From: Rhodothermales bacterium
GTDB lineage: Bacteria; Bacteroidota; Rhodothermia; Rhodothermales; JANQRZ01
Reading direction: 5' to 3'
Assembly (NCBI GenBank): GCA_028284265.1
Contig: JANQRZ010000003.1
Span: 310,001-374,000 of the forward strand
DNA length: 64,000 nt
Shown here piece by piece: positions 6,389-20,718 of this stretch; positions within the stretch are counted from its first letter, which is position 1; each line of letters opens with the position of its first letter. Under the pieces are notes generated by a model, which saw nothing but the letters and a program-made list of their open reading frames with translations, was not told where the DNA came from and did not search any database. Both the position numbers and the translations under genes were made by a program.

Positions 6389-7477
6389 TCAGTCGACGAC
6401 CACGTCGGTAGCGTTACCGTCCAAGATGCTTCCGAGCCAGTCGGCGTAGGTGCCGGGGTAGCGATCGGGGAAGCGGAGGAAGGTGTGATCGGTGCCGGGG
6501 GCGAAGTACGTTCCCCAACTGGCGGGTGCCATCGTGTTAAGATCGCCCAGCCCGTTCTCGTACTGCTCACCTGTGATCTCAACAGGTTGCCCGGTCAGCG
6601 GGTCGATGCCGAAGAAGAAGCGGATCGTCTCGTCCTGAAGGTAGGACGAAAGCCCAAACGTCGCGTCGGGGTAGCGCCCGTCGTAGTAGGCATAGACGTT
6701 CTGGAGGCCGTCGGGCTGGAAGAGTGCGGCCGCATCGGCAGGGAACGCCGCGGGGAAGTTGAAGAGCTGGACGAAGGCTCCGCCGAGAGCCGGACTGAAG
6801 ACGGCGTCGTCGAAGAAGACCGGGCCGGAGTCGTTGACGAGCGTGAGGTCCGCGTTGTCGAAGGTGTCAGCGACCTGGGCGAAGTTGACGAGGGTCCCGA
6901 ATCCGCCCGCACTGGAACCCGTGAGGAGGACCTTGTCGGGATCGTCGAACACCGGACGGAGGACGGCAAGGTAGGCCTCAATGTTCTGATGCCCGACGAA
7001 CTGCTGCACGCCGTCTACGCCGGGGACGGTCGCATCGGGCGCGCTGCCGCCGTGGACATCGCCCGTGCAGTAGGGAACATAGACTGCGTTCCAGTCGCCG
7101 ACGGGGTTGGTCGCATCGGTGCTGAAGACACCGAAGCTGCCGCCGAGGCCGACGAAGCCGACGAACTCCTCACCGCCGAAGGAGCCGGGGTTGGTCGCGC
7201 ACGTTTCCGGGCTGAAGCACGCGCCGCCGCCTTCGAGGTAAATGACGAGGTTGTCGGAGTTCTCTTGGAACCGGATGCCGAAGCCAGTGGGGGAGCCGTC
7301 GCGGCAGGCCGCCCCTTCGGTCTCGATGAAGAACCACCGGCCGGGGTTGGCCTCGGCCTCGGCGAGCGGGCCCTCGTCTCCGTTGTCGTCAGGGTCGTCG
7401 GAGTCGCAGGCCGGAAGGGCGAAGAGGAGGGCGCCGAGGCAGAGTACAGTGGCGAAGCGTTGAAGGAGAAGCTGCAT
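6389..7477 (-). CDS. Pectinacetylesterase/Notum-family lipoprotein, paralogue 1
   Basis: A protein of 362 aa. The lipoprotein signal has its lipobox Cys at residue 24 (FALPAC), so it is probably anchored in an envelope membrane. The core is an alpha/beta-hydrolase of the pectinacetylesterase family: LVIYLEGGGACF, a paired-cysteine region, VPYCTGDVHGG, the nucleophile elbow LTGSSAGGFGT and a C-terminal histidine in GTDHTFLRFP. Such enzymes remove acyl groups from polysaccharides (plant PAE) or from a lipidated protein (Notum); the substrate here is unknown. It is the last of three tandem paralogues. ATG 7477 fits the signal peptide; the longer frame upstream has no signal character. Confidence 0.85.
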   Translation of the reverse strand: MQLLLQRFATVLCLGALLFALPACDSDDPDDNGDEGPLAEAEANPGRWFFIETEGAACRDGSPTGFGIRFQENSDNLVIYLEGGGACFSPETCATNPGSFGGEEFVGFVGLGGSFGVFSTDATNPVGDWNAVYVPYCTGDVHGGSAPDATVPGVDGVQQFVGHQNIEAYLAVLRPVFDDPDKVLLTGSSAGGFGTLVNFAQVADTFDNADLTLVNDSGPVFFDDAVFSPALGGAFVQLFNFPAAFPADAAALFQPDGLQNVYAYYDGRYPDATFGLSSYLQDETIRFFFGIDPLTGQPVEITGEQYENGLGDLNTMAPASWGTYFAPGTDHTFLRFPDRYPGTYADWLGSILDGNATDVVVD

Positions 7478-7584
7478 GGAGATCGCGTAGGTGGTGTGGG
7501 ATGACACCGCAAAGCTACTCCCTTCGGCGAGGCCCTCCGAAGAAAACGGCGTGGACATCGCCGCTACGCGAGACGTCTTCCTCG

Positions 7585-8844
7585 CTACGGTCCTCCCGAC
7601 GTGGTATCCTGCTGGGCGGGCATATCGGTACTATTGCCCCCGAAGCTGTTGTATATCCAGTCCGTCAGGGGCAACGTGTCGACCTGTACCTCATAAAAAT
7701 CAGACTGCTGGATGAAGGTATGCCCGTTGCCCTCGGGGTAGAAGGTGATGAAGTTCGTAAGCAGCGAGTCCCGATAATCGAAGAGGGCGTCTTCGTAGAC
7801 TTGGGCGTCGATTCGGAGGTCGGTGGACCCGTCGCAGGTAAGGTCGGTCGTGGTGCAGAACGGGTTGTTCTTGCACAGGAAGCTTCGGTCTACACAGTCT
7901 TCGGTGTAGGAGGTAAAGGCAAACGTTCGGGCGGGGTTAGTCTGCGCGTAGTACGGCAGGACGTACTCCAGCCCGTTGAGGCATTCCACGCAGTCTTCGG
8001 GTATGACACTCGGCGTGATCCGGCGGCTCTCCATGTTCCAGAGGCTGCGCCAGAGGGCTTCTTGGTCGGGGGAGAAGGCGCTGTCGGCGCTCAGGAATGG
8101 CCCGGAGTCGTTCAAGAGGTTGACCGGGGCCGGAGCGAGACGGTCAGCGACCAAGCCATAGGTGTTGATGGTCCCGAAGCCTCCGGCACTGGTTCCGGTG
8201 AGCACGATGTTGTTGGCTGCTCTGGCTCCTCGGTTGGCTAGGATATCAAGGACGATCTCCATGTTGCGGTAGCCCACAAACTGCTGCGGCGTGGGCACAC
8301 CGGACACGACGGCATTGGTCGTATCGCCGCTATGGAGGTCCCCGGTGCAATACGGGACGAAGATGGCAGTCCAGTTCAGGAATGGGTTGTCCGGATTGGT
8401 AGAGGAGAAGAGACCACTCTCGCCGTTCTTGTCTCCAGTCCCGTTGACGAGGTCGTTGAAGAAGGTTTCCTCCGAGAAGTTGGAGGGGTTGCTGAAGCAG
8501 TTCTCGTCGTTGAAGCAGGCCCCACCGCCCATGAGGAAGATCAGAATGTTCCGATTGGACCCGCGTCGAAACCCGAAGCCGGTCGCCGAACTGTCGCGGC
8601 ACATCATCCCGAGGTCCTGAAAGTCGCCGGGCATCGGGTTGGGACCTCGCGGCCCCACCCATTTCCATTCATCGACCCCAGTACGAGCAAGGGGATCTAG
8701 GTTAATGCCGAGTGGATCGATCTCGGCTTGCTGCGTCGCATCAACTTGATCGCAGGCTGAGAGGACGAGGGTGAAGAGAACCAAGCCCGCGAGACAGAGC
8801 AAAAGAGAATGAGTCGCTCGCAGGGAGGAAACAAAGAGGTGCAT
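7585..8844 (-). CDS. Pectinacetylesterase/Notum-family lipoprotein, paralogue 2
   Basis: A protein of 419 aa, the longest of the three. The signal peptide ends at the lipobox LVLSAC (Cys31). It shares with its neighbours MMCRDSSATGFGFRRG, ILIFLMGGGACF, VPYCTGDLHSGD, the nucleophile elbow LTGTSAGGFGTINTYG and the late histidine GNGHTFIQQ. It has an extra cysteine-rich insert (SFLCKNNPFCTTTDLTCDGS) before the C-terminal part, which paralogue 1 lacks and which may form disulfides. A perfect 8+8 bp palindrome lies 21 bp upstream of the start. The preceding gene (paralogue 3) ends 134 bp upstream, so the three may form one transcript or be separately controlled. Confidence 0.85.
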   Translation of the reverse strand: MHLFVSSLRATHSLLLCLAGLVLFTLVLSACDQVDATQQAEIDPLGINLDPLARTGVDEWKWVGPRGPNPMPGDFQDLGMMCRDSSATGFGFRRGSNRNILIFLMGGGACFNDENCFSNPSNFSEETFFNDLVNGTGDKNGESGLFSSTNPDNPFLNWTAIFVPYCTGDLHSGDTTNAVVSGVPTPQQFVGYRNMEIVLDILANRGARAANNIVLTGTSAGGFGTINTYGLVADRLAPAPVNLLNDSGPFLSADSAFSPDQEALWRSLWNMESRRITPSVIPEDCVECLNGLEYVLPYYAQTNPARTFAFTSYTEDCVDRSFLCKNNPFCTTTDLTCDGSTDLRIDAQVYEDALFDYRDSLLTNFITFYPEGNGHTFIQQSDFYEVQVDTLPLTDWIYNSFGGNSTDMPAQQDTTSGGP

Positions 8845-8864
8845 GGTGGAGCCTAGTGGAGAAC

Positions 8865-8881
8865 GCCTTGCGTCGCAAGGC
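8865..8881. promoter_or_regulatory. Perfect inverted repeat upstream of paralogue 2
   Basis: GCCTTGCG and CGCAAGGC are separated by one base, 21-37 bp upstream of the start codon of the middle pectinacetylesterase-like gene. The position fits an operator or a 5'-UTR hairpin. No regulator was identified. Confidence 0.35.
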
Positions 8882-8978
8882 TGGGTTGAAGAGGCGGACC
8901 TAGTCGAAAACTATTCCGAGGCTGGTACAGCGGCCTTTGCCGAGCCAGACCGGGAACAAAAGCGGGACGGATGGGGGG

Positions 8979-10112
8979 TTACTCGGCGTGTGCGACCACG
9001 AGAGATTGGGCAGCGGGGAGATCGCTCGTTTGGCCGTTCAGGAGGGCCGTCACCCAATTTGTGAGCGGCACGCCCTCGACGGTGGTCGAGTAAAAGGTGT
9101 TGCTCAACAGGAACGTATGGTCCTGGCCGTTGACGTAGTACGTTCCGAGGTTCGGTGGGTGGATGGAGCGGAGGTCGAAGAGACCGTTCTCGTAGGCCGA
9201 GGTGCTCACGCCGCCAAAGAATGCACGGATGACGGCGTCGCCTTTGTAGGAGAGGAGGCCGAAATTCCTGTTCGGATTGGTTTGGGCGTAGTACGGGAGC
9301 ACGAACTCCAGCCCATCGCCATCCGCTTGGTTGCAGAATGAATCGGGGCAGCCGGACGGGAGGGCTGTTTCAAGGTTCCAGAGATCGCGCCACCGCTGCT
9401 GTAGGCTGGGGTCGAGCACGTCGTCGTCACGGTGGGCCGGGCCGGAATCATCAAGGAGGTCCACGGGAGCCGGAGCGAGGCGATCGGCGACGAGGCCGTA
9501 AGTACCGATGGTGCCAAACCCGCCCGCACTGATGCCCGAGAGAACGATTTGGTCGGCTTGCCGAGCCGGACCGTCGATCTCGTCCAGAATTGCCTCGATG
9601 TTTCTATACCCGACGAAGTCCTGCCGCCCGACAAAGGGGACGTTCGTGTTGGGGGCGTTCCCAGCGTGGATGTCGCCCGTGCAGTAGGGGACGTAGATGA
9701 CGTTCCAGCCGAGGAACGGGTTGGCCTGCTGGGTAGTGGAGAAGACACCGTTCTCGCCGATGGAGGCGAACTCCTCATTGAAGTCAGCTTGGTTGTAGCT
9801 GCTAGGATTGAGGAGGCAGGTGAAGAAGTCGAAGCACGCCCCGCCGCCTTGGAGGAAGATCAGGAGATCGCGGGAGCCAACCGCCCGGCGCAGGCCAAAG
9901 CCGGTGTTCGATCCGTCGCGGCACTGCATCCCGGCATTGGGCACCCACTGCCAGTTCTCGGCATCGGCGGCCGAGAGCGCAGGGAGCAGGGGGCTGTCAT
10001 CGAACAGGCCCTCGGACACCGTTTCCTCGGGCGCAAAGGCGTCGGTACAGGCAGCGAGGCTAAGGCTGAGGCCGAGGCAGAGCAGCGTCAGCGGGCGGCG
10101 GGACAAGAGCAT
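8979..10112 (-). CDS. Pectinacetylesterase/Notum-family lipoprotein, paralogue 3
   Basis: A protein of 377 aa whose signal peptide ends at the lipobox LSLAAC (Cys22). Family landmarks: GMQCRDGSNTGFGLRRA, LLIFLQGGGACFDFFTC, VPYCTGDIHAGN, the nucleophile elbow LSGISAGGFGTIGTYG, DDSGPAH and the C-terminal QDHTFLLS histidine. It is closest to paralogue 2 (shared TYGLVADRLAPAPV and LEFVLPYYAQTNP), pointing to a recent duplication of these two, with paralogue 1 more distant. The start at ATG 10112 sits directly before the hydrophobic leader; the longer open frame upstream overlaps the divergent restriction gene and is not supported. It is first in the tandem. Confidence 0.85.
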   Translation of the reverse strand: MLLSRRPLTLLCLGLSLSLAACTDAFAPEETVSEGLFDDSPLLPALSAADAENWQWVPNAGMQCRDGSNTGFGLRRAVGSRDLLIFLQGGGACFDFFTCLLNPSSYNQADFNEEFASIGENGVFSTTQQANPFLGWNVIYVPYCTGDIHAGNAPNTNVPFVGRQDFVGYRNIEAILDEIDGPARQADQIVLSGISAGGFGTIGTYGLVADRLAPAPVDLLDDSGPAHRDDDVLDPSLQQRWRDLWNLETALPSGCPDSFCNQADGDGLEFVLPYYAQTNPNRNFGLLSYKGDAVIRAFFGGVSTSAYENGLFDLRSIHPPNLGTYYVNGQDHTFLLSNTFYSTTVEGVPLTNWVTALLNGQTSDLPAAQSLVVAHAE

Positions 10113-10204
10113 GATATTAAACGGGGATGGACAAGGCGAACGGCGAAGATAGAGATAGAGGCTGCCGGTGTCTAGTGCCAACAGGCTTATCCGACTAGCG
10201 CCAA

Positions 10205-10209
10205 AGGAG
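10205..10209 (+). promoter_or_regulatory. Shine-Dalgarno-like AGGAG deciding the EVE-McrB start
   Basis: AGGAG ends eight bases before GTG 10218 and eleven before ATG 10221. The spacing favours GTG, giving a protein starting MMRYWIW. Strong SD sequences are rare in this window. Confidence 0.45.
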
Positions 10210-10217
10210 TATTTTTC

Positions 10218-11912
10218 GTGATGCGCTACTGGATCTGGTCCGTTCGCCCCGAGCACTACCCGGCGTTTGTCCGCACCGGCACGTTCGCCGTGCGACGGGT
10301 GGGGCGCACCGCCGTGCAAGAAGTGCGGCAGGGCGATCGTATCGTGGCCTACTTGTCAGGACGGCGCACCATAGCAGGCGCTTTCGAGGCGACGAGTACG
10401 GCCTTTGAGGATGACACAGCCCTCATCCCCGGAGGGGCGTATGCCCACCGGGTGCGCGTTCGCTCGCTTGTGACCCTGAACGAGGAAGTCCGCGTACCCT
10501 ACGAGGCCTTTGCGGGCAAGCTGACGGTACTCGATGAGTACGCCCACCTCGACGATCCCGACCGGCAGTTCCGCGCCATCGTGCAGCGCGTCGTGCATCC
10601 GCTCCCGCCTGTCGATGGGAAGGTGCTGGAGTTTCTGATCCGCGCCCGCCAAGGGACCGACTTCGAGGCAGTGGTGGCGGCCTACGAGCGCTTTCGGCGG
10701 GCGCAGGACGGTGAGGAGGAGGCCCTGCCGATGGCCGTCCACGAGACACCCGGCGACTATCGCAGGCCATCGCTCGACGGGTGGAACCGAGCCGATGCAC
10801 TGGGGCGACTGATTGAGTCCATCGAAGCGCGAGGGTTCGTCTACCAGCCGTGGCAGGTCGCGGCTTACGTGACGGCGCTCCGAACGAAGCCGTTTGTGAT
10901 CCTCGCGGGCGTCACCGGGGTTGGCAAGAGTCGGTTGCCTGTGCTCGTCGCCGAGGCGACCGGTGGAGCCGCTGGCCTGATTCCCGTTCGCCCCGACTGG
11001 ACGGATAGCGCCGAGGTGCTCGGCTACACGGACTTGCAGGGCACCTTTCGTTCGGGTGCCTTACTTGCCAAGGCCCGCGAGGCGGTGGAACGCCCGAGTC
11101 AATATGCTGTCGCCGTGCTCGATGAGATGAACCTCGCTCGTCCCGAGCATTACCTCGCCGAGGTGCTCAGTCGGATCGAAGGGCGGCAGTCGTCGGCAGG
11201 TGGTGGGTTCGAGAGTCCGCCGCTCATCGCGTCATCTAAGGTGCGGCTCCCGCCAAACCTAGGGATTGTCGGGACGGTGAACATGGACGAGAGCGCGTTC
11301 GGGTTCAGTCGGAAGGTGCTAGACCGAGCCTTCACGCTGGAACTGTCGGACGTGACGCTCGGAACGTGGCATGCGGCATCCGACATCGAGGCAGTGACGC
11401 GCCCTTGGCCGGTGGCGGCGTGGTGGCCCCGTGCCGTCACGCTCGGCGGGCTAGGTGCGCTATCGAAGCAGGAGGCGCGCCTCGTGGAGGAGGTCATTGC
11501 TGTGCTGAACGAGGCCGATGCACTGCTCGCGCCGGCTGGCTTGGGCCTCGGCTATCGGCTGCGCGACGAGGCCGTGCTGTTCGTCCTCCACGCCGCCGAA
11601 ACCCCGGACGCCTTTCGCACCCGCGACGGCACGTCCGTGGACCCGCTCGACCTCGCCCTGTTCATGAAGCTTCTGCCCCGCATCGCGGGCGGGAACCAGA
11701 GCGTGCGCCGCGCCCTCTTCGCGCTCCTCGGCTGGGCAATGGACGGGGCAGCGCTCTCATCGGAAGATGAGGTCCGCGAGGTGCTGGACGAGTGGGATCG
11801 ACAAGCCCGACCGTCGTACCTCACGGGGGCGCGGTACCCTCGCACTGCGGCCCGCCTCGTGCTGATGACAGAGCGTCTGCTTGCAGATGGGTATGCTTCG
11901 TTCTGGGAGTAG
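10218..11912 (+). CDS. EVE domain fused to McrB-type AAA+ ATPase
   Basis: A protein of 564 aa. Residues about 3-140 resemble an EVE domain (YWIWSVRPEHYPAF at the start, then QGDRIVAYLSG and IAGAFEATS). EVE/PUA-like domains bind modified bases in DNA or RNA. After a linker, residues about 205-560 form a McrB-like AAA+ module: Walker A GVTGVGKSR near 230, DSAEVLGYTD, Walker B AVLDEMNLARPEHYLAEVLS near 297, and the sensor/Arg-finger region TVNMDESAFGFSRKVLDRA near 352. It abuts the next gene with no spacer, as mcrB and mcrC do. The inferred role is recognition of modified foreign DNA and motor-driven restriction. Confidence 0.85.
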   Translation: MMRYWIWSVRPEHYPAFVRTGTFAVRRVGRTAVQEVRQGDRIVAYLSGRRTIAGAFEATSTAFEDDTALIPGGAYAHRVRVRSLVTLNEEVRVPYEAFAGKLTVLDEYAHLDDPDRQFRAIVQRVVHPLPPVDGKVLEFLIRARQGTDFEAVVAAYERFRRAQDGEEEALPMAVHETPGDYRRPSLDGWNRADALGRLIESIEARGFVYQPWQVAAYVTALRTKPFVILAGVTGVGKSRLPVLVAEATGGAAGLIPVRPDWTDSAEVLGYTDLQGTFRSGALLAKAREAVERPSQYAVAVLDEMNLARPEHYLAEVLSRIEGRQSSAGGGFESPPLIASSKVRLPPNLGIVGTVNMDESAFGFSRKVLDRAFTLELSDVTLGTWHAASDIEAVTRPWPVAAWWPRAVTLGGLGALSKQEARLVEEVIAVLNEADALLAPAGLGLGYRLRDEAVLFVLHAAETPDAFRTRDGTSVDPLDLALFMKLLPRIAGGNQSVRRALFALLGWAMDGAALSSEDEVREVLDEWDRQARPSYLTGARYPRTAARLVLMTERLLADGYASFWE

Positions 11913-13598
11913 ATGATGGGCACGCTGTTCTCCATCGCGACAGATCGCGTACGACTGACGTTGAGTGGGCCACTCGCACCGCCAGACCCGACGGCACCGG
12001 AAGCACATCTCGTCGTGCATTCGCTTCGGGCAGGTAGCGAGTTGCTGGTCGAATGCGGGGGCGAGAGGGGCTCTTCTGGCGCAGTGCTCCGGCTGGTGGA
12101 GCAGACGCCGTACCGCCTGTTCATGACGAGCCGATCCAGCGAGTCGGTTGCCGTGCAGCACCGCGATCCGGTCATCACCGGCGGGTTGGTGAGCGATGAT
12201 AAGGGGCGAGTCGTCGCCGGGACGGTGGACTTCGGTGGGCAGGTCGGGCGGAGCCGGTTCGTGGTATTGGTCGGTGGGGAAGAGGAGGTTGCCTTCGAGG
12301 TAGACGTGTTTCCGGCGAAGGTGTCGTTCGATGAGATGGAGCGAATGCGGACGGAGATCGACGAGGCGCTCGCAGGGCTGGCGTTCGAGTATCTCCGGGC
12401 GACGCAGACGTTTTCCACCGAGGCCGTCACGCCGCCGCGCCGGGCGACGTGGCTGACGCTCCTCCGCCGCACCCTGCCCGATCTCGAACGTGCCCTCAGT
12501 CAGATAGCGCATCGTCCGCACCGAGACTTGCACCGAGAGGCCGTGCCCGTGCGCGTAGAGCAAGTGCAACGGCCCGACCCATCTGTGCGCCGCGCCATTC
12601 GCCAGGGACGAGGCGGAGGAGCGCTGCATCGACTCCGAACGGGCGTGCCGGTACGGTCGGTCGTCCCCACCCGCTGCGCTCACGCGACGCTTGACACGCC
12701 CGAGCATCGCTGGCTCCGCGCCCGCCTCGCGTCGGCCCACCGCGCCCTTGCCACGCTTCACGCCGATGAAGTTGTGCGCCCGCGTTCTGCTCGTCGCCGC
12801 CGCGTCTTGGACGACTTGGCAGATGCGGACCAGCGCCTCGCCCGGTTGCTCCGCCTTGATCCACTTGCGGCAGCCTCGCCGGGTCCGCCGCCTGCGCCGA
12901 CGCAGCGCCTGCTCGCGGCCCCCGGCTACGCCGAAGCCCACGCCGCCTGCCGAGTGCTCGATCTCAGCCTCGCGCTCGCTGCCGGGCCGGTTCCGCACGC
13001 GACGAAGGACCTTCACCTGCTCTACGAACTGTGGACCTATCTCACGCTTGCCCGACTCGTCGCCGATGCGCTCGGGCAACCAGTTCCACCTTCGGCCTTC
13101 TTTCGGGCCGAGCATCGGGGCATCCGCTTTCTGCTGCGGCGTGGACAGCAGCACGGCGTAACGTTCGAGCACGACGGGCGGCGGGTCCGCCTCGCCTATA
13201 ACCCGCGCTTCTCCGGCCGGGCGGGCCTGATGGCGCAGCGGCCCGACATCCTGATGACCGTCGAGACACCGGGGCGCACGCGGCGGTTCGTGCTCGACGC
13301 GAAGTACCGTCGCGACGAGCGGGCAGGCTATGTCCGCCGATTCGGGGTACCGGGTCCGCCCGAGGACGCACTGGGCGACCTGCACCGATACCGCGACGCG
13401 ATTGTCGAGACGCAGGCGGGTCGGTCCGAGCGGACGATTGAGGAAGCCGTCGCGCTGTTCCCTGGTGTCGGAGGCGAGGTGTTTGCCGGGAGCCGCCTGT
13501 GGACAGCCATCGAGCAGATTGGCGTCGGCGCGATCCCCCTCGTGCCGAGCGAGACGGCCTACCTTGAACGCTGGCTCCGCCGTGTCCTCGAAGCCTAG
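11913..13598 (+). CDS. DUF2357/PD-(D/E)XK nuclease, McrC-like partner
   Basis: A protein of 561 aa. The ATG directly follows the stop of the EVE-McrB gene, so translation is probably coupled. The N-terminal half is a beta-rich then helical region of the DUF2357 kind. The C-terminal third has PD-(D/E)XK nuclease landmarks: LHLLYELWTYLTLARLV, then RPDILMTVETPG and the catalytic-looking VLDAKYRRD near residues 443-470, followed by DLHRYRDAI. McrC-type partners stimulate the McrB NTPase and carry the nuclease. Reading it as the nuclease subunit of a modification-dependent (type IV-like) system is inference from the domains and adjacency. No methyltransferase adjoins the pair. Confidence 0.8.
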   Translation: MMGTLFSIATDRVRLTLSGPLAPPDPTAPEAHLVVHSLRAGSELLVECGGERGSSGAVLRLVEQTPYRLFMTSRSSESVAVQHRDPVITGGLVSDDKGRVVAGTVDFGGQVGRSRFVVLVGGEEEVAFEVDVFPAKVSFDEMERMRTEIDEALAGLAFEYLRATQTFSTEAVTPPRRATWLTLLRRTLPDLERALSQIAHRPHRDLHREAVPVRVEQVQRPDPSVRRAIRQGRGGGALHRLRTGVPVRSVVPTRCAHATLDTPEHRWLRARLASAHRALATLHADEVVRPRSARRRRVLDDLADADQRLARLLRLDPLAAASPGPPPAPTQRLLAAPGYAEAHAACRVLDLSLALAAGPVPHATKDLHLLYELWTYLTLARLVADALGQPVPPSAFFRAEHRGIRFLLRRGQQHGVTFEHDGRRVRLAYNPRFSGRAGLMAQRPDILMTVETPGRTRRFVLDAKYRRDERAGYVRRFGVPGPPEDALGDLHRYRDAIVETQAGRSERTIEEAVALFPGVGGEVFAGSRLWTAIEQIGVGAIPLVPSETAYLERWLRRVLEA

Positions 13599-15243: not shown

Positions 15244-15933
15244 GTCTAGCGCGTCACGCAACGTCGTCCAGTCGTCGAAGGCGAGGACGCCGTCGCGGTC
15301 ACCGTCGCCTCGGAACCACGCGACCTGCCAGCCTGCGGCGCGTCCGCCCTCGACGTCCGAGTGCAGTGAGTCGCCGACGTAGAGAATCTCGTGTGGTTCG
15401 ACGCCCGCCTGCTCCGTCGCGTGCGCGAAGATCGCCGGATGCGGTTTCATCACGCCGACCTCCTCGCTGATAACGACGGCCTCCGACCGCTCGCGTAGCA
15501 CCGGGAACCGGGCGAGCTTGCCCTGCTGTTGCTCCACGAAGCCATTGGTGAGAAGGCCGACGGGATAGTGGTCGGCGATGGCGTGGAAGGCAGCCTCGGC
15601 CTCCGGTATCCATTGCCAGTGCGCGCCGTAGCGTTCGAGGTAGGTGGTGCCAAGCAGGGTCGCATCGAGGTCGAGCGATAGGGTGGAGCAGAGCCGCTCG
15701 AAGCGGAGCCGCTGCACGTCCTCGCGCCCGATCTCGCCCGCCGCATACTTTCTCCAAAGCGGGACGTTACCCGCGTGGTAGGTATCCTGTATAACGGATA
15801 GCGAATGTCCGTTAAAGTGATGGTTGAAGGTCGCGTGGCAGTCGGCGAGGGCCGCACGCTCGGCCGCCCGGTGGTCGAGGAGCGTGTCGTCGAGATCGAA
15901 AAAGATGAAGGCAACGCCAGATGGATCGATCAT
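15235..15933 (-). CDS. HAD-superfamily phosphatase, YjjG/PynA-like
   Basis: A protein of 232 aa. All four HAD motifs are present: FFDLDDTLLDH (nucleophile Asp) at residues 10-20, LLTNG (motif II), the lysine in GVMKPHPAIF, and VGDSLHSDVEG. The helical cap between motifs I and II fits the YjjG-type nucleotidase group, which dephosphorylates pyrimidine nucleoside monophosphates. The start is ATG 15933 (MIDPSG). The first 14 codons match, with about one third divergence, a broken gene start at 20656-20718 that is coupled to the acyltransferase gene there. So this gene's 5' end and its present neighbour may result from an insertion event. Confidence 0.88.
   Translation of the reverse strand: MIDPSGVAFIFFDLDDTLLDHRAAERAALADCHATFNHHFNGHSLSVIQDTYHAGNVPLWRKYAAGEIGREDVQRLRFERLCSTLSLDLDATLLGTTYLERYGAHWQWIPEAEAAFHAIADHYPVGLLTNGFVEQQQGKLARFPVLRERSEAVVISEEVGVMKPHPAIFAHATEQAGVEPHEILYVGDSLHSDVEGGRAAGWQVAWFRGDGDRDGVLAFDDWTTLRDALDLA
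15892..15909 (+). repeat. Direct repeat within HAD codons 9-14, left copy (att-like)
   Basis: GAGATCGAANNAGATGAA, read on the plus strand, recurs at 20677-20694 in the same orientation with 16 of 18 bases identical. Both copies encode FIxFDL of a HAD start on the minus strand. The copies are 4,785 bp apart and bound the accessory segment. Confidence 0.6.
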
Positions 15934-15982
15934 GGATTTCTGGCGCAAAGAGGGCGATTTGTGCAAGTATCGGATTTCAGCT

Positions 15983-16000
15983 TTACGTACATGTTACGTA
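15983..16000 (+). repeat. TTACGTACATGTTACGTA, left arm repeat
   Basis: It matches 20553-20570 (TTACGTACAGGTTACGTA) at 17 of 18 positions in the same orientation. Each copy contains two TTACGTA units. The copies lie 91 and 107 bp inside the HAD direct repeats, the way arm-type sites flank an integrase core site. It could instead serve as a promoter-region operator for the HAD gene. Confidence 0.5.
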
Positions 16001-16097
16001 TGCCATTGGCCGCGCCTACCTCCTCGGAGTACGAGCCTGAGCGCAGCCTAGAGTGGCACGGGGTTGGATATCCAAGGGGGTATGGAACGAGCGCGAT

Positions 16098-16433
16098 TCA
16101 ATCCTCTGCTTGATCGTCTTGATCTTCTCCGGGTAGGGGAGGCTGTAACTCTATTCCGAGATGTGCAAGCATCACCCCCAACTGAGCGTCCTGCCCGACC
16201 AAACGGCCAAGCATCCGTTCCACCTCCTCTTTCCGCCGCGTTTCAAAGAATGAGAGAATGGCTGACTTACCCGCTTCGTCTGCTCTTTCGGCGATGATAT
16301 GAGCGACAAGCATTTCCATTAGAACCTTTGCGGTTGCATTGGCAAGGATGGAAGACAGGAGTGCCTCTTCCACCAACTCGCGGTCTGTCAGATCAGCCAA
16401 TAGGGGGTGACGCTCCTGCTCGTCGCTGCTCAT
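16098..16433 (-). CDS. Hypothetical helical acidic protein
   Basis: A protein of 111 aa starting at ATG 16433 (MSSDEQ); an in-frame start 30 bp upstream is possible. It is predicted mostly alpha-helical, with a long amphipathic stretch (ELVEEALLSSILANATAKVL and FFETRRKEEVERMLGRLVG) and a strongly acidic tail. There is no signal peptide, membrane segment or domain I recognise. It lies between the HAD gene and the transposon, inside the segment bounded by the HAD direct repeats, and is likely accessory. A cargo or remnant of the inserted element is the simplest reading. Confidence 0.5.
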   Translation of the reverse strand: MSSDEQERHPLLADLTDRELVEEALLSSILANATAKVLMEMLVAHIIAERADEAGKSAILSFFETRRKEEVERMLGRLVGQDAQLGVMLAHLGIELQPPLPGEDQDDQAED

Positions 16434-16829
16434 AGTTTCTGCTCGATTGTTTCCGCCCAACATACCAGCCAGCACAGGCAAAGGGGAACCCCGGCTCGCG
16501 CTCGAACTGCTTGGCGGAAACGCCTGCGGGTATGGCTCATAGTGAACACGACGTGGAGCCACGAAATGAGCTAGGTGCGGGATGGCTCCCTATCGGGCGT
16601 GCGTATCCGGGCAGTCATTTGGCTCCTCCACGAGCCATCGTCGGACTACATCATGGGCTGCGTGGAAATAGGCCCAAAGGCTAATTACTTAACGCGCTTA
16701 TCCCCTTGTTACAGGTGATACGCTAGAAGCTACGATGAAGAGGTCGCCTGCACTATGACTTCATCAAATGTCGGGCGTATTCTGCCAACTCAGCAGACAA
16801 TAGGGTTTGACTGAGTACATCTTCGTCCT
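16434..16829. other. 396-bp non-coding stretch holding the left transposon end
   Basis: No convincing gene is seen. The left terminal inverted repeat of the transposon starts at 16693, and 113 bp separate its inner end from the ParB-like start, enough for a promoter. The outer part (16440-16690) contains short open stretches on both strands without start, length or homology to support them; it may be remnant DNA of an earlier element. Confidence 0.5.
16693..16716 (+). repeat. Left terminal inverted repeat
   Basis: It begins CGCGCTTATCCCC and ends TTGTTACAGGT. All 24 bases are the exact complement of 20447-20470. Confidence 0.9.
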
Positions 16830-18212
16830 ATGACTGGAACCTTCGTTATCGAAACCGCAGCGCTCTCCGAGCTTGTTCCCGACAAGAAGAACCCGCGCCT
16901 GACTGGCTACCCAGAGACGGAGCGCGACACTTATATCCAGATGGCCAAGGCGATTGAGGGCAAACTCGTCACACTAGCTTCGGACATCGTTACTCGTGGT
17001 GGGCTTAACCCGGCAACGGTCTTTATTACGATCCGGGGCGACAGAAACAGCCTCATCGTTCTTGATGGCAACCGACGGCTGACCGCCTTGCGTGCCCTTG
17101 AACAGCCCTCCCTCGTTGAGTCCGCACTTGACCCCTCTTCCTTCAAGAAGCTGAAAGGACTTCACGACGATTATTCCTCCGGTGCTAGGTCTGGGCTTCC
17201 AATTGAAGAGGTTCTCTGTGCTGTATTTGAATCACGCCCGGAAGCGAACAAATGGATCGAACTCATCCACGAGGGGGAGCGGGATGGGGCCGGGCCGGTT
17301 CCTTGGAGTGCACAGCAGAAGGCTCGACACCGTGACAATAACTCGGAGACCAAGGCTTACCATATGCAGGTACTCGACTTCGTGATGCGTGACGGCGAGG
17401 TCGGTGACGTCGCCCGCCAGCGGTACGATGAGGGGAAGTATCCCGTCAGCACACTACAGCGAACGATAAGCACCCCAGAGGTGCGGCATATGCTTGGCAT
17501 TGATGCGGATTCTGGAGAGGTGAAGACTCACTACCCGAAGGATGAAGTGCTCAAAGGCTTGACCCGCCTCGTAGACGAGATTGGTTCGGGTAAGACCAAG
17601 GTGGGGAAGGTGATGGACAAAGGGAAGCGCATCAAGTATATCGAGTCTTTCGGCCCCCACAACCTCCCAGACCCGACGACTAAGGGTGAAATCGCCTACG
17701 AGCTTGATGAGGTGCCTGAACCCGATCCTGCTCCATCAGATCCGACGCCGAAGAGGTCGAAGGACAACAAACACAGCAGTAAGCGAAAGCACCTCATCCC
17801 ATCAGCCTTCACAGTAGAGATTGACGTACCTCGCATCAATGACATCTACCTTGAACTCAAACGTCGCCTCGAACTCAGTTCCCATCCAAACGCTATCGGC
17901 GTACTCCTCCGGGTCTTTCTCGAACTCAGTGTAGACGAGTACATCGAGCGCAACAACGTCTCGGTCGCCGTGAACAAAGACCTCGCGCCCAAAGTCAAGG
18001 GAGTAGCTGACTACATGGTCAAGAAGCGCGTGATGAAGGCGAACAGTCTTAAATCAGTTCGTCAGGCAGTAACGAAGGCTCAGGATGGCAGTGGCACCAT
18101 CATCACGACGCTAAATACCTTCGTTCACAATCGGGAAGGACAGCCTACAGCAAGGGATCTCACGGCAATGTGGGACCGGCTCTCTACCTTCATCGAGAAG
18201 CTTTGGAGCTAA
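16830..18212 (+). CDS. ParB/Srx-fold N-terminal domain protein, transposon cargo
   Basis: A protein of 460 aa. The opening LSELVPDKKNPRLTGYPETE and the motif VLDGNRRLTALRAL (near residue 70) are typical of ParB/sulfiredoxin-like domains, a fold shared by ParB CTPases and by several defence and modification proteins. The ParB helix-turn-helix is not seen. A Lys/Pro-rich linker (about 295-325) leads to a helical C-terminal domain of about 130 aa containing GVLLRVFLELSVDEYIE and NTFVHNREGQPTARDL near the end; the His-Asn pattern recalls HEPN-like domains, but I cannot assign it. It lies 103 bp before the methyltransferase gene, likely co-transcribed. Its role is unknown, perhaps regulating or targeting the methylase. 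Confidence 0.75.
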   Translation: MTGTFVIETAALSELVPDKKNPRLTGYPETERDTYIQMAKAIEGKLVTLASDIVTRGGLNPATVFITIRGDRNSLIVLDGNRRLTALRALEQPSLVESALDPSSFKKLKGLHDDYSSGARSGLPIEEVLCAVFESRPEANKWIELIHEGERDGAGPVPWSAQQKARHRDNNSETKAYHMQVLDFVMRDGEVGDVARQRYDEGKYPVSTLQRTISTPEVRHMLGIDADSGEVKTHYPKDEVLKGLTRLVDEIGSGKTKVGKVMDKGKRIKYIESFGPHNLPDPTTKGEIAYELDEVPEPDPAPSDPTPKRSKDNKHSSKRKHLIPSAFTVEIDVPRINDIYLELKRRLELSSHPNAIGVLLRVFLELSVDEYIERNNVSVAVNKDLAPKVKGVADYMVKKRVMKANSLKSVRQAVTKAQDGSGTIITTLNTFVHNREGQPTARDLTAMWDRLSTFIEKLWS

Positions 18213-18315
18213 GCAGTGGCCAAGACAATTTAGGGTGGCCAAAACAAAGTGTGTGTCGTAAGTTTGCTCTGGCACATATTGTGCTCGCCACACCTTCTGA
18301 CTCACTTGGCCTTGA

Positions 18316-19224
18316 ATGCCCGGCTTCCAATCTCCTCTCCGCTATCCCGGCGGCAAGCGCAAGCTCGCCAATTTTATCAAGCTACTCCTCCGCTCGAATG
18401 ACCTCTTGGATGGGGAGTATGCCGAGGTGTACGCGGGGGGGGCTGCTGTTGCACTTGAACTGCTCTTCGAGCGCTACGTCTCGCACATCCATATCAATGA
18501 CTACGATCCGGGCATCTACGCCTTCTGGTACTCGGCTGTCCATGAGACGGACGCGCTGTGCCAGCGGATCTGGGATGTAGAGGTCAAGATGGATGAGTGG
18601 TATCGCCAGCGTGAGATCCACGAGCAGTTGCATTCCGGTGAGGAAATTGCCCGCTTGGATGCAGCACTTGCTACATTCTTTCTCAACCGTGCGAATAGGT
18701 CGGGAATTATCTCAGGGGGTGTGATCGGCGGCAAGCAGCAGACAGGGGAGTGGGGGATCGGGGCACGATTTAACAAGCCTGAACTCGTGCGACGGATTGA
18801 GAAGATCGGGCGCGAGCGCAACCGGATCAGCGTAACTAGGAATGACGGAGTAGTCTTCTTGAGAGAGGTTGTCTCTACGTTACCGGCACGTTCCTTTACT
18901 TATTTGGACCCCCCCTATTACGTCAAGGGTCAGCAAATGCTCTACGCTAACTACTACAAGCCGGAAGACCACCGGAAAGTAGCTGAATTGGTGAGCAATC
19001 TAGGAATACCTTGGATGGTCTCCTACGATGACGTAAAAGAGATCCGTTCCCTTTATATCGCTCACCGTTCACAGGATTACGACATTCATTACAGCGCGCA
19101 AAAGCGGTACCGAGGCCGCGAAGTAGCGTTCTTCTCTGACGATCTTAACGTCCCAGATGTAGACGACCCTGCCCGCATCAACGGACGCAGCTTTCGGCAT
19201 TTGGAGTTTGAGTTGACGGCTTAG
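18316..19224 (+). CDS. D12-class DNA adenine N6-methyltransferase (Dam-like)
   Basis: A protein of 302 aa. It opens with the family's SAM-binding signature SPLRYPGGKRKL at residues 6-17, has EVYAGGAAVALELLF (motif I-like), and the catalytic motif IV DPPYY near residue 198 preceded by SFTYLD. It ends with SYDDVKEI and a YSAQKRYRGREVAFF region usual for D12 enzymes. It transfers a methyl group from SAM to adenine in a short target that cannot be read from sequence. No restriction endonuclease is adjacent, so it is an orphan methylase riding on the transposon. It could mark element DNA against host restriction or influence transposition. Confidence 0.9.
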   Translation: MPGFQSPLRYPGGKRKLANFIKLLLRSNDLLDGEYAEVYAGGAAVALELLFERYVSHIHINDYDPGIYAFWYSAVHETDALCQRIWDVEVKMDEWYRQREIHEQLHSGEEIARLDAALATFFLNRANRSGIISGGVIGGKQQTGEWGIGARFNKPELVRRIEKIGRERNRISVTRNDGVVFLREVVSTLPARSFTYLDPPYYVKGQQMLYANYYKPEDHRKVAELVSNLGIPWMVSYDDVKEIRSLYIAHRSQDYDIHYSAQKRYRGREVAFFSDDLNVPDVDDPARINGRSFRHLEFELTA

Positions 19225-19259
19225 GAGCCTGCGCCTCGTTTCGTCGTATACTGGCTACG

Positions 19260-19475
19260 ATGAGTTGCTCTGACCAACAACGCGAGAAGCCTCAAGCGGA
19301 CGCACCCGAGCGCCCGCAAGACCGGCCTTTGCCTAACACAGACTTCCCGCCAGCACTTCAGCGTACACTCGCACAGAAGCTCCAAGAAGAGCAGGCGGGT
19401 GATGGTTCTACGCTTTCAGAACCGGAGTTTAAGGAAGCGTTGCAGAAAGTTGCCCGGCAACGGCAATCTGACTGA
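19260..19475 (+). CDS. Small hydrophilic protein, transposon cargo
   Basis: A protein of 71 aa, 35 bp after the methyltransferase and in the same direction. It is strongly hydrophilic (rich in Gln, Glu, Arg, Pro), with an N-terminal disordered-looking part and a short helix (EFKEALQKVARQRQ) at the end. Its last 47 bp overlap the 3' end of the convergent transposase gene. It has no recognised domain. Position suggests the third gene of the cargo operon, but coding status rests only on the open frame and spacing. Confidence 0.45.
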   Translation: MSCSDQQREKPQADAPERPQDRPLPNTDFPPALQRTLAQKLQEEQAGDGSTLSEPEFKEALQKVARQRQSD

Positions 19476-20385
19476 GCATCGCCGTAAACATCGGCGTCTC
19501 CTTCTTGGCGTTGGAGTGCCGGAAAGCGAACTCGTCAACGTAGCGCTGTAGGTATCGCGGGTTGACGCCCTTGTGGACGGCGGTAACGCCCCCTTTGACG
19601 TGGCTCCCAAAGCCCTCGATGGAGTTGGTATGCACCGGGTTGGTGCCCTCCTCAGAGACGATCTCGCCTGTCTCATAATCAACGGCTTCCTTCGCATACT
19701 GCCAGCGGCGGTGCTGTACCCAATCATGCCCGTAGCCCATGTCTCCTAGCGGGCGATACACGCTGTATTCGTCGCTGTAGATCGTCGCACCTTCCTCTAC
19801 GTTGTCGGTGATGAGCGGGAGCACCGTGTCACGCTTGGTATCGTCTACAACGAAGGCGCGAACTCGCTTCACGCTCCCGTCCTCGCCGCGTTCGACTAGG
19901 CCAACCACCGGCTGTTTCCGGGTGCCCCGTCCCCGACGACTCTGGCCTTTGTAGCGCGGCTTCCCGCCGACGTAAGCCTCGTCCACCTCTACGGTCCCTT
20001 CCATCGCGGCGAAGTCGCCCTCGGCAAGCGCAGCGCGCACTAGCTGGCACATCTTCCACGCCGTCTTGTAGGTCACGCCGGTCTGCCGTTCGATCTCTTT
20101 GGCAGAGACGCCGCACCGGGTCTGTGCCATCTGGAAGACGACGTAGAACCAGACCGTAAGCGGGGTGCGGCTCCGGTAGAAGATGGTGCCCTTCGTCGGG
20201 TAGAACTGATTGCCGCATTCCTTGCACTCGTAGCACTTCCGCTTCTCGATCAGGTAGTGCTGTGTGGCGTCCTCACACTTCGGACACTCGATCCCATTGG
20301 GGAAGCGAAGCTCGGCTAGATGGGCGATGCACTTGGCCTCTGTGCTGAACTCTCGGATGAACTGCGCGACGGTATATTTCTGCAT
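19429..20385 (-). CDS. IS1595-family (ISXO2-like) transposase
   Basis: A protein of 318 aa, intact. The N-terminus has a zinc-ribbon with four CxxC cysteines (CPKCEDATQHYL, CYECKECGNQFYP), followed by TIFYRSRTPLTVWF and a helix-turn-helix-like region (GVSAKEIERQTGVTYKTAWK). The DDE core shows VEVDEAYVGGKPR (first Asp), IYSDEYSVYRPL (second Asp) and NSIEGFGSHVKGG (third acidic residue), with the FAFRHSNAK tail common to the family. It catalyses cut-and-paste movement of the element. The start codon lies 61 bp inside the right terminal repeat. The gene looks functional. Confidence 0.93.
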   Translation of the reverse strand: MQKYTVAQFIREFSTEAKCIAHLAELRFPNGIECPKCEDATQHYLIEKRKCYECKECGNQFYPTKGTIFYRSRTPLTVWFYVVFQMAQTRCGVSAKEIERQTGVTYKTAWKMCQLVRAALAEGDFAAMEGTVEVDEAYVGGKPRYKGQSRRGRGTRKQPVVGLVERGEDGSVKRVRAFVVDDTKRDTVLPLITDNVEEGATIYSDEYSVYRPLGDMGYGHDWVQHRRWQYAKEAVDYETGEIVSEEGTNPVHTNSIEGFGSHVKGGVTAVHKGVNPRYLQRYVDEFAFRHSNAKKETPMFTAMLSQIAVAGQLSATLP

Positions 20386-20446
20386 CAGAACGTGCCTTGA
20401 AGTTGGTGCCCAAAGGTACCGACTCCTAGTGCCATCCGCGTGTCAT

Positions 20447-20470
20447 ACCTGTAACAAGGGGATAAGCGCG
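20447..20470 (-). repeat. Right terminal inverted repeat
   Basis: Exact complement of 16693-16716 over 24 bases; it marks the right end of the IS1595-type element, 61 bp upstream of the transposase start. Confidence 0.9.
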
Positions 20471-20552
20471 AATGGTAATCAGGCGACGGCAATTTGCCTG
20501 AGTATCCACGACATTCTGGGGACTCGGCGCTCAACTAGATTGCTGCCATCCG

Positions 20553-20570
20553 TTACGTACAGGTTACGTA
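20553..20570 (+). repeat. TTACGTACAGGTTACGTA, right arm repeat
   Basis: Direct copy of 15983-16000 with one mismatch, outside the transposon but inside the HAD direct repeats. This suggests it belongs to the larger inserted segment rather than to the transposon. Confidence 0.5.
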
Positions 20571-20655
20571 AAGGGCGTCTCGTAGTGTCTCGCGCACCGA
20601 GACAGCCGTAGAGCGAATGTGCTATCAGACCCCTAGAAACGGCGATATTGACTCT

Positions 20656-20718
20656 TTATAGACGGCGCCTGTGTTGGAGATCGAAGTAGATGAACCGGAC
20701 AGCGGCGGGGTCGATCAC
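20656..20718 (-). pseudogene. Broken 5' end of a HAD phosphatase gene
   Basis: A GTG at 20718 overlaps the stop of the acyltransferase gene by four bases (GTGA) and reads VIDPAAVRFIYFDL, clearly the start of a HAD protein ending inside motif I. It then leaves homology and stops after 20 codons. The intact HAD gene at 15235-15933 starts MIDPSGVAFIFFDLDDTLLDH. The original operon was therefore probably acyltransferase then HAD, now split by the accessory segment. The two starts share about 69 % of bases over 42 positions, so this is not a recent simple duplication. Confidence 0.7.
20677..20694 (+). repeat. Direct repeat within HAD codons 9-14, right copy (att-like)
   Basis: Matches 15892-15909 in 16 of 18 bases, including an unbroken GAGATCGAA. 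The identity is highest just where the two reading frames switch from homologous to unrelated, as expected for a recombination core. Confidence 0.6.

Follow-up and report, generated by a model that had tools for sequence, protein, structure and literature searches.

An IS1595-family transposon that very probably carries the PD-Lambda-5 anti-phage pair in a Rhodothermia genome

Defence systems are mostly known to travel on prophages, plasmids and integrase islands. Could a small transposon do the same work? The question is raised by a locus of a Rhodothermales bacterium (GenBank assembly GCA_028284265.1), in a 64,000-nucleotide stretch of contig JANQRZ010000003.1 (positions 310,001 to 374,000), which is referred to below as the window. 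An earlier sequence-only reading had proposed that window positions 16693-20470 are an IS1595-type transposon bearing a ParB-like protein and an orphan adenine methyltransferase. We consider it very probable that this element belongs to the passenger-gene transposons of the IS1595 family, the transporter insertion sequences ('transporter IS'), and that it carries PD-Lambda-5, an anti-phage system, in complete form. The evidence for the element, its cargo and a second carrier is presented first, followed by the insertion site and by the explanations that compete with ours.

The transposon and its cargo

The element is 3,778 bp long (window 16693-20470), and contains an intact transposase and three cargo open reading frames (ORFs). 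It is bounded by perfect 24-bp terminal inverted repeats, the left one at 16693..16716 on the plus strand (CGCGCTTATCCCCTTGTTACAGGT) and the right one at 20447..20470 on the minus strand. The transposase (318 aa; 19429..20385, minus strand) consists of a zinc ribbon and a DDE domain, which are matched in Pfam by Zn_ribbon_IS1595 (E 2e-12) and DDE_Tnp_IS1595 (E 4e-37), and it is the single IS1595-type transposase in the genome. The cargo ORFs of 460 aa, 302 aa and 71 aa all lie on the plus strand, convergent with the transposase, and the GC content of the transposon is 55.9%, compared with 64.2% in the native flanking DNA. The sequence-only reading was accurate on all of these features, namely the perfect repeats, the intact transposase, the three cargo genes in one direction and the lower GC.

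Relatives of the transposase were gathered from GTDB species genomes, and 57 elements were delimited by inverted repeats together with an exact 8-bp duplication of the target. A terminal-repeat profile was built from their 114 ends; it is biased, as its members were picked for having an exact duplication. Scanned with this profile, about 128,000 window positions gave 21.6 bits for the left repeat and 22.3 bits for the right repeat, with the runner-up position at 4.8 bits; the ends of the transposon are therefore not due to chance. Both ends also fit the end consensus of the 57 relatives, GGgAatTATCCCCTTgcgACAtGTAa. When the 19-bp core of the repeat was searched in the 3.69-Mb genome with up to 3 mismatches, no site was found besides the two ends. 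Stray repeats without transposase or cargo between them, which the earlier reading had named as speaking against a transposon, are thus absent from this genome.

The first two cargo genes are adjacent, in the order A then B on the plus strand, and their PADLOC matches to PD-Lambda-5 span nearly the full length of both proteins. Protein A (460 aa; 16830..18212, plus strand) matches PD-Lambda-5_A at E 2.3e-115 over residues 10-459, and protein B (302 aa; 18316..19224, plus strand) matches PD-Lambda-5_B at E 1.7e-114. Protein B is a D12-class DNA adenine methyltransferase (Pfam MethyltransfD12, E 2.8e-18) with intact YPGGK and DPPY motifs. It is not an orphan, as had been thought, and forms one half of a recognised two-gene anti-phage system; the earlier view that it belongs together with the ParB-like protein holds. 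PD-Lambda-5 came from a functional selection in E. coli, where nearly all phages tested were affected; it was cloned in a strain without the mrr region, and it has been called a compacted prophage version of a restriction-modification plus abortive infection (RM+Abi) system (Vassallo et al. 2022, PMC9519451). A and B of the window quite probably work in phage defence, an effect shown so far for the E. coli system. No mechanistic study of PD-Lambda-5 was found in the literature.

Protein A was modelled with AlphaFold from a 20-sequence alignment (pLDDT 86) and compared with solved structures, none of which matches it by sequence. The model consists of an N-terminal domain of the ParB/sulfiredoxin fold (residues 1 to ~170), a helical middle and a HEPN-like C-terminal domain (~330-460). 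The N-domain aligns with ParB bound to a CTP analogue (7bnr; VIA Z 9.6, rmsd 2.0, 93 residues) and has two conserved motifs, NPR and GNRR, the latter invariant at residues 80-83. Fold and motifs thus agree with the name 'ParB-like', though the Pfam ParB profile does not match protein A, and the hhalign comparison with the genome's own ParB is weak. The C-domain, previously described as helical and unassigned, appears HEPN-like by structure comparison. In the full model it aligns with HepT (6m6u) at VIA Z 8.4; modelled alone (pLDDT 92), its top matches are HepT (8.6), 4nqf (8.4), YutE (8.3), sacsin (8.1) and Csm6 (7.7), and HEPN or HEPN-like proteins make up most of the first 20 rows, at Z 6.2-8.6, a range (below 13) that is modest for helical bundles. 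Residues R361, E365 and H433 are invariant in all 19 of the 19 complete C-domains.

Relatives of the transposon and a second carrier

The 57 delimited relatives are 1.5-3.9 kb long, with a median of 2.0 kb. In nearly every one a passenger gene stands tail-to-tail with the transposase, and the passengers are mostly unrelated, uncharacterised proteins. In an alignment of these passengers, several proteins have N-terminal membrane helices, and five-member families recur across elements of Sphingomonadales. Four sister elements are flanked by 8-bp duplications, with examples from the same phylum in genomes G032 (TCGCCCGA), G127 (TAAAATTT) and G002 (TTAGTTTT). The element of G002, a genome of the same family (locus L038, 391-4311), carries a 957-aa passenger with HSDR_N_2, N6_Mtase and Methylase_S domains, which by its sequence appears close to single-chain restriction-modification (R-M) enzymes and to MADS2. 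The element of G032 (L037, 6104-9620, with 8-bp duplications) carries a small cargo protein with weak similarity to Cas2 (PADLOC E 1e-4).

These sister elements also bear on the third cargo gene, the 71-aa ORF (19260..19475, plus strand), which is tail-to-tail with the transposase and overlaps it. Small ORFs that are similarly placed and weakly similar occur beside the transposases of four sister elements, and its counterpart in G002 is the C-terminal tail of the R-M-like protein, a weak match (E 0.002). We tentatively regard this ORF as an accessory gene of the transposon and not as part of the defence pair; the label is only tentative because the sequence similarity is weak.

A second carrier was found on the conjugative plasmid pMspAR07d of Mesorhizobium sp. 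AR07 (NZ_CP080528.1). It is a 3,816-bp IS1595-family transposon (L136, 3869-7684) with 28-bp terminal repeats that are 93% complementary and with 8-bp duplications on both sides (GAAAAATT). Its genes follow the order inverted repeat, A, B, a 92-aa ORF, convergent transposase, inverted repeat, and its A and B match PD-Lambda-5 at E 1e-124 and 2e-117, respectively. Layout and size resemble those of the window element, whereas the identities are 29% for A, 48% for B and 28% for the transposase, the inverted-repeat sequences differ, and the small ORFs are unrelated by eye. The trees of A and of B both place a phage copy as the fully supported sister of the Mesorhizobium protein, and the window proteins group with copies from their own order with a support of 92-94, below the 95 mark. 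Because identity is only 28-48% and the trees place the Mesorhizobium proteins beside phage copies, two separate captures of PD-Lambda-5 by IS1595 elements appear to be the better reading.

Carriage by IS1595 elements is one of several ways in which the pair is found. Only two of the approximately 44 PD-Lambda-5 A loci examined, those of the window and of pMspAR07d, lie inside IS1595 elements; no IS1595 transposase was found near A at the others, none of four further loci from Hyphomicrobiales lies in an IS1595 element, and none of the 80 IS1595 loci from the search for transposase relatives holds A or B. Relatives of A occur in phages, plasmids and integrase-bearing islands. Of 23 viral contigs with an A gene, 19 also have B at that locus, nearly always directly downstream of A; in two other members of the order, the pair lies within about 1-4 kb of a tyrosine recombinase, with no IS1595 transposase. 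Single-sequence searches (A against genome contigs; transposase and A against viral contigs) came back empty, and it was the alignment-based searches that succeeded.

An IS1595 insertion sequence beside an A-like gene in Azospirillum ramasamyi (NZ_CP029831.1) was considered and rejected as a carrier, as it has its own 24-bp repeats and leaves A outside. At that locus (L175, 2571-6753), the A-like gene is interrupted by an IS5-like element, the IS1595 element stands separately just upstream, and there is no B nearby. A-like genes without B nearby were also seen in Brevundimonas and Azospirillum argentinense (L172, 6340-7629; L173, 5671-6975), and these may represent a B-less branch of the family.

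The insertion site

The HAD and GNAT genes that flank the insertion are direct neighbours in relatives (G001, G002 and others), 3 to ~260 bp apart, with no A-B pair between them; genomes G032 and G039 are uninformative in this respect, having no HAD gene within 20 kb of GNAT. The empty site that the sequence-only reading had called for thus exists, and the pair is not kept in place in these relatives. The missing stretch, though, is larger than the transposon, as 4.8 kb (~15.9-20.7 kb) lie between HAD and GNAT in the window.

Both outer junctions fall at the 5' end of the HAD gene. At the right junction (20677..20718, minus strand), the native HAD start is preserved as a cut-off piece: its GTG overlaps the GNAT stop, and the reading frame runs through MIDPAAVRFIYFDL and is then broken. 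At the left junction (15892..15933, minus strand), the working HAD gene begins with a replacement 5' end, MIDPSGVAFIFFDL, which continues into DDTLLDH. Replacement and native starts are identical at 29 of 42 positions, and shuffled sequences reached at most 25/45 against 30/45 observed. A cut native start together with a divergent replacement start is what site-specific integration leaves behind when it enters a gene at its 5' end. Near the two junctions stand the copies of an 18-bp direct repeat (15983..16000, plus strand, TTACGTACATGTTACGTA; 20553..20570, plus strand, TTACGTACAGGTTACGTA), which are identical at 17 of 18 positions and occur nowhere else in the genome. Low GC extends past the terminal repeats (55.9% at 15970-16692 and 52.9% at 20471-20676), because the transposon lies inside a larger foreign insertion. 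Outside the transposon, this insertion contains an ORF of 154 aa (16098..16562, minus strand; ORF list), of which no relative was found in 114 genomes of the order. The ORF list shows no integrase between the outer junctions, so the outer element would be a remnant or be mobilised in trans.

Proposed mechanism, alternatives and comparison with known systems

In the mechanism that we propose, the transposase would act on the 24-bp ends, by cutting at them or joining them, and thereby mobilise the 3.8-kb unit, in which A and B would be transcribed toward the convergent transposase gene. Protein B would methylate adenines in host DNA and thereby mark it as self. Protein A, as a nucleotide- or DNA-binding protein of the ParB fold with a HEPN-like domain, would remain silent on marked DNA; unmarked or damaged DNA would release it, and the HEPN domain would then stop the infected cell or the phage. 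We give such a methylation-gated HEPN effector an even chance. Taken as a whole, an IS1595 passenger-gene transposon with PD-Lambda-5 as anti-phage cargo is the best explanation and in our judgement a likely one. Several observations weigh against it. No target-site duplication flanks the window copy (TTACTTAA / AATGGTAA), also when shifted frames are tried, whereas 8-bp duplications were found in 62 of the 72 relatives with both ends; by that count the window copy is unusual and not unique, and an individual copy of a transposon can lose its target duplications. The Z of about 8 obtained for the C-domain is modest for a helical bundle, though the top rows nonetheless agree in kind. H433 is invariant, but the R that would complete the canonical HEPN RNase motif, Rx4-6H, is not conserved at the expected place, R361 and E365 being the invariant residues instead. 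No restriction nuclease was identified.

The lack of a duplication also favours a different view of what has moved. The transposon may be dead or a mere passenger, and the moving unit may be the outer 4.8-kb insertion, placed in the 5' end of HAD by site-specific recombination. The absence of the whole 4.8-kb stretch from relatives, the cut native start on the right with the divergent start on the left, and the 18-bp repeats that are unique to this locus would all fit; yet there is no integrase between the outer junctions, and the transposase and both ends of the transposon are intact and match the family consensus. We therefore regard this as possible, but on the unlikely side. The two layers can also both be true at once, and one may speculate that a deletion made by the transposon next to itself accounts for the lack of an integrase as well as for the lack of a duplication. 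As regards the cargo, A might instead be a restriction nuclease, a DNase of the ParB-like kind, paired with B as its cognate methyltransferase in a type II-like R-M system, and the HEPN-like domain would then be structural only. DNases of the ParB fold are on record from R-M contexts (PMC3710099), and A and B are tightly linked. However, the ParB/Noc proteins that A matches in fold are CTP-binding ones, and A has GNRR where they have GERR. Conservation at R361, E365 and H433 is moreover as high as in the N-domain, an argument for an active C-domain; we hold this alternative to be unlikely. Still more doubtful is the suggestion that the repeated capture of PD-Lambda-5 by IS1595 transposons reflects a second benefit, the pair stabilising the transposon as a combined defence and addiction module whose gene order is conserved by selection and not by chance. 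If it were true, loss of the element would end methylation by B, and the HEPN toxin of A would be released.

The sequence-only reading had suggested that methylation shields the DNA of the transposon from host restriction, including a McrBC-like pair nearby, and this is the explanation that we find highly improbable. A methyltransferase is present, and about 3 kb from the transposon (window 10218-13598) an EVE-domain McrB-like AAA protein and a McrC-like protein with DUF2357/PDDEXK_7 form what appears to be a modification-dependent restriction pair. But enzymes of the McrBC type cut DNA that carries modifications, and methylation is no protection from them and would be a liability; moreover, the known targets of the EVE-McrBC type are modified cytosines, whereas B, with its DPPY motif, methylates adenine. 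The same A-B pair is also found in phages, plasmids and islands, and acts in phage defence in E. coli (PMC9519451). Elsewhere in the window (6389-10319, minus strand), three tandem paralogous genes encode secreted hydrolase-like proteins with GGGACF and GTSAGGFG motifs, which by eye are probably pectinacetylesterase/Notum-like.

The kind of transposon and the defence system were each known already. Their combination, found twice independently, did not turn up in the literature searched, in which subscription journals were thinly covered, nor did any paper on an IS1595 element with anti-phage cargo. That the same layout is seen in two independent captures, in different phyla, suggests a repeatable route by which small IS1595 transposons can ferry PD-Lambda-5 between bacteria. 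A transposon of 3.8 kb depends on nothing beyond its own transposase and its two ends, and is able to hop among prophages, plasmids and islands. New defence genes could be sought directly among the dozens of uncharacterised IS1595 passenger proteins, and the ParB-HEPN assignment supplies testable residues in protein A of PD-Lambda-5.

Compared with known systems, the window element shares the zinc-ribbon IS1595 transposase, the inverted repeats and the presence of passenger genes with transporter IS of the family, such as ISNha5 (Siguier et al. 2009, as cited in PMC11891212). It differs from most of its IS1595 relatives in its length (3.8 kb, where the median is 2.0 kb), its two-gene defence cargo and its lack of a duplication. 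Fusions of HEPN to ParB have been described, as have operons that combine a HEPN gene with ParB and DNA methylase genes, and Anantharaman et al. (2013, PMC3710099) predicted that the HEPN domains in them act as R-M-coupled suicide RNases, kept in check by the modification system; the window pair has the same kinds of domains and would follow the same suicide-RNase logic, a likeness at the level of domains. For the cargo, the comparison is with PD-Lambda-5 of E. coli (PMC9519451), which has the same two proteins in the same order and on the same strand; that pair is described as prophage-borne, whereas the pair described here lies inside an IS1595-family transposon of a Rhodothermia genome.

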